In this document: positions 41,113 to 43,630 of the stretch, piece after piece
Layout of the letters: each line of letters starts with the position of its first letter
Numbering within the stretch: the stretch's first letter is position 1
Source: Caldifarciminota bacterium
GTDB taxonomy: Bacteria > Hydrothermota > Tepidihabitantia > SM23-42
DNA length: 48,340 bases
Assembly (NCBI GenBank): GCA_020341755.1
Contig: CP070834.1
Location: 1,140,166 to 1,188,505 of the forward strand
Direction: 5' to 3'
Made by a program: the position numbers and the translations under genes
The notes under the pieces: model-generated
The model's database searches: none
The model's input: the letters and a program-made list of their open reading frames with translations, nothing else
Told to the model about the DNA's origin: nothing

Positions 41113-41140
41113 TTGACATGGAACCACAATCGGGTATAAT
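41113..41140 (+). promoter_or_regulatory. Consensus promoter of the attenuator transcript
   Basis: TTGACA (41113-41118), a 16-bp spacer and TATAAT (41135-41140) are perfect at both boxes. The start near 41147 is 2 nt before ATG 41149, so the leader peptide would be read from an almost leaderless mRNA. Confidence 0.8.
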
Positions 41141-41148
41141 GACCGGCA

Positions 41149-41229
41149 ATGAAGATAACTAGAGAGCATAAACTTGTGCATAATGATTTCTACTTCTATT
41201 TTTTCAGCGCGGAGATGAAGCCCGATTAG
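41149..41229 (+). CDS. Phe/Tyr-rich leader peptide (attenuator), 26 residues
   Basis: ATG 41149 opens a 26-codon frame that ends in TAG at 41227-41229. Codons 14-19 (41188-41205) read FYFYFF, a run of four Phe and two Tyr. The last codons (SAEMKPD) overlap the hairpin that follows. The layout is that of a ribosome-mediated attenuator leader such as pheL or pheM. A ribosome stalled at 41188-41205 for lack of charged tRNA-Phe or tRNA-Tyr would leave 41216-41224 free. One completing the peptide would cover it. No aromatic biosynthesis gene lies downstream in the window. The next genes are an HTH protein and a peptidase. Confidence 0.7.
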   Translation: MKITREHKLVHNDFYFYFFSAEMKPD

Positions 41230-41282
41230 GCTTTTTTTGAATTTTGTAAGGCGCCGCGGGCTTCAACCCGCGGCGTTTTTAT
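41216..41282 (+). terminator. Attenuator: antiterminator/terminator switch
   Basis: Three competing pairings are visible. Hairpin 1: AAGCC (41218-41222) with GGCTT (41229-41233), followed by T's. Hairpin 2, the strong terminator: CGCCGCGGG (41252-41260) with CCCGCGGCG (41267-41275), loop CTTCAA, then TTTTT. Antiterminator: TGAAGCCCG (41216-41224) pairs perfectly over 9 bp with CGGGCTTCA (41257-41265), which includes the inner 5' arm and loop of hairpin 2 and breaks both hairpins. The antiterminator strand begins 10 nt after the last Phe codon. An 18-bp inverted repeat, ATTTACAT-AA-ATGTAAAT, follows at 41281-41298. Confidence 0.7.
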
Positions 41283-41358
41283 TTACATAAATGTAAATTG
41301 ATTACGAAGATAAGCGGAAAGATTACTGAGATGTTATTTTTGTAACGGAAAAATGATG

Positions 41359-41422
41359 GCAGAGATGAAAGGAAAGATTACAGCGATTATATATCTCTGC
41401 TATCTTTCTGTTGTATCGCTGT
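41359..41422 (+). promoter_or_regulatory. Interleaved complementary segments upstream of the HTH gene
   Basis: Three short segments and their reverse complements occur in the same order. GCAGAGAT (41359-41366) pairs with ATCTCTGC (41393-41400). GAAAGAT (41372-41378) pairs with ATCTTTC (41402-41408). ACAGCGAT (41380-41387) pairs with ATCGCTGT (41415-41422). The stems interlock, so they cannot all form as simple hairpins. They may be alternatives or a pseudoknot in the 5' leader. An ideal SD (AAAGGAGGTGAT, 41441-41452) follows. Confidence 0.45.
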
Positions 41423-41456
41423 CATCAATGCACGGAGTGCAAAGGAGGTGATTAAG

Positions 41457-41681
41457 GTGAACAACACACAAAAACAGGAAAAGGTACGATCAAAACCTGA
41501 TGTAGTACAGATAAGTACGGCGTTGCCGTACACTGAGACTGAAATCAGGGTCGCACGTCTGTGTGTGGAAGGCTTGTCCGACATTGAGATCGCTGACGTA
41601 CTCTGTATGTCAGTGAAAGCAGTACAGGCACTGAAAGACATAATAACAGCAAAGGCACGGGCAGTGAACCGGGGGTGTTGA
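41457..41681 (+). CDS. Small stand-alone LuxR/GerE-type HTH protein
   Basis: This is a 74-residue protein. Residues about 25-70 (LPYTETEIRVARLCVEGLSD, then IEIADVLCMSVKAVQALKDI) match a GerE/LuxR C-terminal helix-turn-helix (T-x-x-E-x-x-V-x-x-x-x-x-G-x-S-x-x-E-I-A). There is no receiver or autoinducer domain. GTG 41457 is chosen because AAAGGAGGTGAT, the full anti-SD complement, lies 4 nt upstream. It is downstream of the Phe/Tyr attenuator and upstream of the DUF885 gene. The usual third-helix Thr-Val-x-x-H is replaced by KAVQALK, so DNA recognition may be atypical. Inferred role: a local regulator whose expression depends on aromatic amino-acid supply. Confidence 0.75.
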   Translation: MNNTQKQEKVRSKPDVVQISTALPYTETEIRVARLCVEGLSDIEIADVLCMSVKAVQALKDIITAKARAVNRGC

Positions 41682-41815
41682 TGCCTAAAATATATCAGGT
41701 CAGGAGACTGTTGAAATTCATCTTTACATCCGCCTCTGGCGGCATATATAATATCGTGGTATTTCACAGATTTTTCACGAATGCTGCATATAATGGCTGC
41801 GATCGAGGAGGTTCA

Positions 41816-43630
41816 ATGATAGTGTCACAATTTATGAAGGTTTTCCTCATGATGTTTTTCTGTATGGCAGGAGTAACTATGGCGTGCTGTGAGACGCCGC
41901 CGGAAGATATTGAAGTATTATTTAACGGATTCGTGCAGGAATTCATTCTCCTAAGCCCGGAAACCGGTACTCAGCTCGGTTTGCCTCCGTCGTACGGCAT
42001 AAAAGTCAGCCATGATCATCTGGATAAGGTGGATGAAGAGGCAAATGAGAAATTAGGGGATTTCTATACGAAATACCGAAAATGGCTTGACGCATACGAC
42101 CGGACATCATTAACAGAGTCGCAGCGTGTGGCATGTGAAGTATTAAGATGGTATTTGGATGATGCGATCACGGCTCACGAGTACCGGCACCTTCGTTATG
42201 TCATTAATCCTGTTCTTGGTTTCCACAATAATCTTACTTCACTTATGACCCAACATCACCGGATCGAGGATACAAAGGATGCAAAGGATTATTTAACGCG
42301 TCTGCGGCAATATGATACCATGATGGCGCAACTCGTCGAACAGATCGAGATCAGGGAGAGGAAAGGCATAATTGCTCCGATTTTTATCATAGATTCATTC
42401 CGTGAAGCGGTTGATGAATTTGTCAGCATGCCGTGCGAAGAGAATATACTATACACATCGTTTGCTACACGGCTCGTCAACCTCACTTCGGCCGATGGTA
42501 CGACAAAAGAGAAACTTCAAGAACAGGCACTGGAAGCAGTACGGGATGTGGTGTATCCGGCATACCGAAGATTGAGCGTGCAGTTGATCATCATGCATGA
42601 CAAGGCGGACGAACGTGCCGGTTTGTGGAAACTGCCGCGCGGTGATGAATATTATAAGTACTGCCTCAACCATCATACGACCACGAACATGACGCCGGAT
42701 CAGATACACTCACTGGGTCTTGCCGAGGTCGAGCGCATACAAGCCGAGATGACCGAGTTGTTCAAACACTTCGATATTCCCGATACCGGTACCTTTACCG
42801 ACCGGCTCAAGGCTTATAACGTGATCGCCGGTAACAGGAATGACGAACGGTTTTTCTTCCCCGCGACCGAACAAGGTATTGAGCAGACCTTGAACGCGTA
42901 CCAGGCGATAATTGATTCCATGCAAGAGCGATTACCAGAGATGTTTTTCACTGTGCCGCAGACACCGGTCACAGTAGAACGGGTACAAAAATTCCGGGAA
43001 AAGACTGTTGGGACATATTATCAACCACCAAAACTCGATGGTTCAGGTGGCGGAATATTCTATATGAATCCGTCGTACCAGCATGCAAAAGGGGGCATGA
43101 GGACGCTCGCATATCATGAGGCAATACCCGGGCATCATCTGCAGATGGCGCTGGAACAGGAATTAGGACATGCGCGTTTGTTCAAGGCCCTATTTTTCTT
43201 TACTGGATATGTGGAAGGGTGGGCTCTGTATGCCGAGAAACTCGCCAAGGAATACGGTTTTTACAATGACGTGTACAGCCGTATTGGCAATCTCAGGTCT
43301 GAACTCTTCCGTGCTGCCCGCCTCGTAGTTGATACGGGGATTCACGCAAAGCGCTGGACACGCGATCAGGCATACCAGTATGTGCTGGAGAATGTCGGTT
43401 GGGCTTCATACGGAGAGATTGATCGGTATATTGTCTGGCCCGGACAGGCATGTGCCTATAAGATCGGCGAGCTCAAGATCCTGGAATTACGGGAAAAGGC
43501 AAAGAAATCCCTCGGCGACGAGTTTGATATCAAGGAGTTCCATGACGTGGTCCTGAAATACGGTTCAGTCCCGCTCGAGCTCCTTGAACAATTCGTGGAC
43601 GAGTACATTCAGACTAAATCTGAGTCATAG
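41816..43630 (+). CDS. DUF885 family metallopeptidase-like protein, exported
   Basis: This 604-residue protein has a signal sequence (MIVSQFMKVFLMMFFCMAG, with Cys residues near the cleavage site). The DUF885 fold follows. The hallmark HEAIPGHH motif is at about residues 438-445, with downstream FFTGYVEGWALYAEKLA giving the Glu ligand in a gluzincin-like zinc site. DUF885 proteins are thought to be zinc peptidases, but their physiological substrates are poorly defined. GAGGAGG (41805-41811) precedes ATG 41816, preferred over upstream in-frame starts. A short CCGCC/GGCGG hairpin (41730-41742) lies in the gap after the HTH gene. As an exported peptidase below an amino-acid attenuator it could supply amino acids. 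Confidence 0.82.
   Translation: MIVSQFMKVFLMMFFCMAGVTMACCETPPEDIEVLFNGFVQEFILLSPETGTQLGLPPSYGIKVSHDHLDKVDEEANEKLGDFYTKYRKWLDAYDRTSLTESQRVACEVLRWYLDDAITAHEYRHLRYVINPVLGFHNNLTSLMTQHHRIEDTKDAKDYLTRLRQYDTMMAQLVEQIEIRERKGIIAPIFIIDSFREAVDEFVSMPCEENILYTSFATRLVNLTSADGTTKEKLQEQALEAVRDVVYPAYRRLSVQLIIMHDKADERAGLWKLPRGDEYYKYCLNHHTTTNMTPDQIHSLGLAEVERIQAEMTELFKHFDIPDTGTFTDRLKAYNVIAGNRNDERFFFPATEQGIEQTLNAYQAIIDSMQERLPEMFFTVPQTPVTVERVQKFREKTVGTYYQPPKLDGSGGGIFYMNPSYQHAKGGMRTLAYHEAIPGHHLQMALEQELGHARLFKALFFFTGYVEGWALYAEKLAKEYGFYNDVYSRIGNLRSELFRAARLVVDTGIHAKRWTRDQAYQYVLENVGWASYGEIDRYIVWPGQACAYKIGELKILELREKAKKSLGDEFDIKEFHDVVLKYGSVPLELLEQFVDEYIQTKSES

Follow-up and report, generated by a model that had tools for sequence, protein, structure and literature searches.

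Enterobacterial pheL and pheM, the leaders of pheA and pheST, combine clustered Phe codons with an antiterminator that overlaps the terminator, and their targets are biosynthesis and synthetase genes. In Bacillus subtilis, ribosome stalling in the bmrB leader, brought about by ribosome-targeting antibiotics and not by a starvation codon run, has been shown experimentally to control the multidrug ABC transporter bmrCD (PMC4191407). Ribosome stalling in the uORF of actinobacterial whiB7/wblC likewise induces the gene, which is linked to antibiotic and amino-acid stress (PMC13236596). Within the stretch of DNA analysed here (48,340 nucleotides, hereafter the window), the segment 41113–41284 is, in our assessment, probably a member of a family of ribosome-monitoring attenuators of WOR-3, for which the general input would be impaired translation.

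Elements of the leader

An earlier reading made from the letters alone (the sequence-only reading) had described an aromatic amino-acid attenuator at this place. Its promoter, 26-codon frame, FYFYFF run, terminator and antiterminator are all present, and two elements that it did not contain, a stop-codon hairpin with a T-run (41217–41234) and a promoter-like site (41723–41752), are added in the following list.

41113–41140, + strand: promoter TTGACA-16-TATAAT, matching the consensus at 12 of 12 positions
41149–41229, + strand: leaderless leader ORF MKITREHKLVHNDFYFYFFSAEMKPD, 26 codons, ATG at 41149 (8 nt past the −10 box), TAG at 41227–41229
41188–41205, + strand: six consecutive Phe/Tyr codons (FYFYFF), a feature of the window member alone
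41216–41224, + strand: 5' strand of the antiterminator, TGAAGCCCG, on the final codons of the leader ORF; pairs with 41257–41265
41217–41234, + strand: stop-codon hairpin AAGCC/GGCTT, then a T-run; competes with the antiterminator
41252–41284, + strand: intrinsic terminator CGCCGCGGG-CTTCAA-CCCGCGGCG with T tract
41257–41265, + strand: 3' strand of the antiterminator, CGGGCTTCA, within the 5' arm and loop of the terminator; 9 perfect pairs
41285–41428, + strand: 5' UTR downstream of the terminator, with GATTAC-type repeats
41429–41441, + strand: small hairpin TGCAC-GGA-GTGCA, immediately 5' of the Shine-Dalgarno sequence
41442–41448, + strand: Shine-Dalgarno sequence AAGGAGG of the HTH gene
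41457–41681, + strand: regulated gene, a stand-alone GerE/LuxR-type HTH protein of 74 aa, likely GTG start at 41457
41723–41752, + strand: promoter-like site TTTACA-18-TATAAT (11 of 12), with the inverted repeat CCGCC-TCT-GGCGG (41730–41742) in its spacer
41816–43630, + strand: DUF885 protein with an export- or lipoprotein-like N-terminus, adjoining the HTH gene; the partnership is not conserved

The terminator arms (41252–41260 and 41267–41275) are followed by TTTTTATTT. Terminator and antiterminator are mutually exclusive, as is characteristic of a ribosome-mediated transcription attenuator. The pairing between the 3' part of the window leader and the terminator amounts to −28.3 kcal/mol, a value equalled by none of 500 shuffles. 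In folding calculations on this copy, holding the upstream part gives the antiterminator in the nascent RNA while the 3' arm of the terminator is still to be made, and masking the stop region gives the terminator. The stop-codon hairpin has the form ATGCC/GGCAT at the orthologous locus of another genome (G002), a compensated change relative to the window, and in both copies this candidate element may act as an anti-antiterminator or as a weak first terminator. An Rfam scan of the window returned no family match, and relaxing the threshold brought nothing near the gathering score.

In this genome, the 5' UTR past the terminator is closely similar between the two HTH leaders (41285–41428 and L048), both with GATTACAGAGAT repeats, and the peptides of the same two leaders are unrelated. 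A small hairpin immediately before the Shine-Dalgarno sequence, such as TGCAC-GGA-GTGCA-AAGGAGG in the window copy, is found in several members, the sequences being unrelated to each other.

Related leaders and their downstream genes

A DNA search of 147 genomes of the phylum with 41149–41285 as query found the orthologous locus in G002 and the same layout elsewhere, including two places in the window's own genome. The covariance model built from eight of the DNA-search matches detected 18 strong members at E < 1e-8, spread over 15 of the 147 genomes; the window's genome contains three, and the model found no other attenuators there. Seventeen members lie in 14 genomes of one taxonomic family and the 18th comes from a sister family within the order; the attenuator family appears to belong to WOR-3 (Stahlbacteria), an uncultured phylum. 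Weaker hits outside the order (L180–L183) turned out on reading to be ordinary end-of-gene terminators. Nor is the terminator a common hairpin of the genome, as its core sequence is present in exact form at two places only, the window leader and the leader of the genome's own ABC operon.

The 18 members share a fixed geometry. Each has an exact TTGACA box, a TATAAT-like −10 box and an ATG 7–8 nt downstream of the latter (one has an in-frame ATG closer still), so that the transcript is effectively leaderless. The leader ORF always stops 22–29 nt upstream of an almost invariant terminator, CGCCGYGGG-loop-CCCRCGGCG plus a T tract, and its last codons always form the antiterminator strand, which a ribosome at the stop would mask. 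Twelve members have a single ORF; six ABC members have two, the first leaderless and 12–14 codons long, with its end at the start of the second or only just ahead of it, and the second extending to the common stop. Translation appears to be kept without conservation of the peptide: the ORFs of seven members from one genus are all exactly 30 codons long, and their codons 2–23 differ about equally at the three codon positions (0.45, 0.37, 0.45), with no third-position excess.

The sequence-only reading had named covariation in the stems as a check. The terminator stem varies too little to be informative by itself, whereas the antiterminator does covary. Over the 18-row alignment, 91% of the cells of its 13-pair helix are standard pairs, compared with 28–51% when the strands are slid; five of the 13 pairs are changed on both sides (0/500 shuffles), with 14 further pair types. 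Pairing is also better between the two strands of one member than between strands exchanged among members (p = 1.5e-4 over all members and 5e-5 over ABC members). Kinship among the members inflates both the covariation measures and the swap test. Judged from this alignment, the antiterminator is under selection. Taken singly, the G002 leader pairs modestly better than its shuffles (1.4% as good), and two leaders of the second HTH type do not (22.6% and 32.0% as good). A self-hairpin within the antiterminator strand (columns 12–15/21–24) is 89% paired, with double changes within the range of shuffles (51/500), and is possibly a genuine element.

Downstream of all 18 members lies either an ABC operon (14 members) or a small gene for a stand-alone HTH protein (four). 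The operon encodes a DrrA-related ATPase and an ABC-2 permease; against the drrA model the ATPase scores 231 bits, under the 312-bit cut-off, and drug export is a guess at the level of the protein family. The four HTH proteins, of 74–80 aa, were the sole strong matches to such proteins in the 147 genomes, in a search seeded by those same four. BLASTP gave no alignment between the two HTH proteins of the window's genome, and for this reason we do not claim their common descent. PADLOC returned nothing for the HTH and DUF885 proteins.

We also looked at homologous ABC operons elsewhere. Those of another family of the WOR-3 class (L067, L069, L071, L094–L096) are preceded by another kind of leader, whose Shine-Dalgarno sequence is good (MIKDWTKNLWGPMLVIGFTLSLTEGCL and similar) and whose stop codon again carries a GGGGTGCC-like strand facing a CCCCGGGCATCCC terminator. 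Possible short leader ORFs precede such operons in Zixibacteria (L090, L093, L098), Coatesbacteria (L123) and Thermoactinomycetaceae (L109, L128), examples from these other phyla being MDNFPRITISLIIMKGTAYFQGRSLSIAES and NFWLIEGPRSYRESI / DYWLIEGPRSYRQSI, so leader control of the transporter may be old and widespread. At L074/L143 in G027 (WOR-3), a small terminator-like hairpin, GAAGCCATCTCTAAGGCTTC, followed by T-rich sequence lies right past the promoter of a homologous operon, and no leader ORF is found at this locus.

The architecture of these leaders, their recurrence, the covariation and the gene context are established computationally. The 17 relatives, the fixed geometry and the covarying antiterminator together give good support to the proposal that ribosomes control transcription attenuation ahead of a stand-alone HTH gene.

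Candidate input signals

We infer that switching is co-transcriptional and would proceed as follows. The strong promoter would yield a transcript with a leaderless short ORF. A ribosome that reaches the stop would cover the antiterminator strand, the GC-rich terminator would fold, and the transcript would end at about 135 nt. Should translation of the leader stall or fail before that point, the antiterminator strand would be left free to pair with the 5' arm and loop of the terminator, and transcription would read through into the gene, that is, the DrrA-like ABC operon in 14 members and the HTH protein in four, the window copy included. As the ABC leaders contain no run of any amino acid and the peptide drifts, the common signal would be leader translation that is not completed; by analogy with bmrBCD and whiB7, whether translation completes is probably what the family senses, with ribosome inhibitors and shortage of charged tRNA as the expected inputs. 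The ABC-operon context suggests induction by ribosome-targeting antibiotics.

A narrower signal had been envisaged for the window copy, namely a dedicated attenuator in which Phe/Tyr starvation stalls the ribosome on FYFYFF and turns on the HTH protein together with a peptide-scavenging DUF885 enzyme. The run itself is far beyond chance: in 20,000 dinucleotide shuffles of the ORF, five or more consecutive F/Y codons never arose in frame, and no other run of at least six aromatic codons occurs in the six frames of the 48 kb window. A ribosome stalled on it would leave the RNA from 41216 onward free. At the aligned position the leader of the G002 ortholog retains YYF, and YYVY occurs in an HTH leader of G003. 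Neither chorismate synthase (PF01264) nor prephenate dehydratase (PF00800) has a match in the assembly of the window's genome, which is 90% complete, whereas all 14 control genomes matched; chorismate synthase is absent from 20 of 23 genomes of the family as well. The organism is therefore probably, as judged from its gene content, auxotrophic for Phe and Tyr.

Set against this, the 14 ABC-operon leaders and the other HTH leader in the window's genome have the same architecture and no aromatic run; partial counterparts of the run stand in the G002 and G003 leaders. Clustered Phe/Tyr codons of the pheL/pheM kind are found in the window member only, and the gene behind them encodes an HTH protein, not a protein that makes, charges or transports Phe or Tyr. 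Aromatic-specific sensing may thus apply to the window copy at most, and does not describe the family. The peptide-scavenging reading finds no support. DUF885 adjoins only one of the four HTH genes, the other three loci having different neighbours, which argues against an operon with the HTH gene; it is probably driven by its own promoter at 41723–41752, a site that probably lies outside the attenuator unit. The inverted repeat in the spacer of this site is a putative operator for the adjacent HTH protein. On balance we regard a dedicated Phe/Tyr attenuator as unlikely.

The general sensor of impaired translation can accommodate the run in another way. Given the auxotrophy markers and the Phe/Tyr block, a Phe/Tyr-tuned version of such a sensor is plausible, and the block plausibly makes the window copy especially sensitive to shortage of Phe- or Tyr-tRNA, as suggested by one strong case and one partial ortholog. 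These results lead us to speculate, tentatively, that a single attenuator framework, defined by its leaderless start, the constant placing of the stop and a terminator that hardly varies, serves different genes by taking on different sensor ORFs. The ORF would report on translation in general at the ABC exporter, and would be tuned to an amino acid, here Phe/Tyr in an aromatic auxotroph, at HTH proteins that would act as starvation regulators.

Because most members control a DrrA-like ABC transporter, one could instead imagine a dedicated resistance switch based on drug-dependent stall motifs in the leader peptide, as in ermBL and msrDL. Ahead of the antiterminator the peptides drift freely (19–77% amino-acid identity within one genus), and the conserved C-terminal residues (QGVKST-like) coincide with base-paired RNA; we find such antibiotic-specific arrest improbable. 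Least credible of all is an sRNA gene or plain tandem terminators, in which a ~135-nt sRNA is made and the ORF is incidental: a strong promoter and a strong terminator would suffice for an abundant short RNA, yet the leaderless start is constant, the ORF is open to the same relative stop in 18 of 18 members and of constant length in the seven of one genus, and ABC or HTH genes always follow directly.

Comparison with known systems

The kind of mechanism is known, while the WOR-3 family and its targets are apparently undescribed, no published account having been found in the literature searched. They give WOR-3/Stahlbacteria a testable regulatory system: a translation sensor that is compact, leaderless and spread across the lineage, follows clear sequence rules and is linked both to an exporter-like operon and to small HTH proteins.

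Like pheL and pheM, the window leader has clustered Phe codons in its ORF and an antiterminator that overlaps the terminator. Unlike them, it precedes an HTH gene in a genome without PF00800 and PF01264, and the six-codon run is missing from its 17 relatives. A conspicuous run of codons can thus mark the specialised form of a sensor with a wider scope. The family has in common with bmrB-bmrCD a translated leader ORF, an antiterminator and a terminator that exclude each other, and an ABC transporter as target, but the B. subtilis terminator is located inside the bmrB coding region, whereas the leaderless WOR-3 ORF stops 22–29 nt before it (PMC4191407). The leader sequences are unrelated, and antibiotic induction is a prediction for the WOR-3 family. 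The mycobacterial polycysteine sORFs (Canestrari 2020), to the extent that they are presented in PMC13236596, are likewise leaderless short ORFs that sense an amino acid; they act by translation attenuation, whereas the WOR-3 helix competes with an intrinsic terminator. The HTH members resemble whiB7/wblC in placing a small transcription factor under transcription attenuation by a uORF, and differ in that the protein is of the GerE type and not a WhiB iron-sulfur protein, in another phylum and with another RNA (PMC13236596). This suggests that whiB7-like logic, in which translation stress leads to a small regulator, has a counterpart beyond actinobacteria that uses another type of protein.
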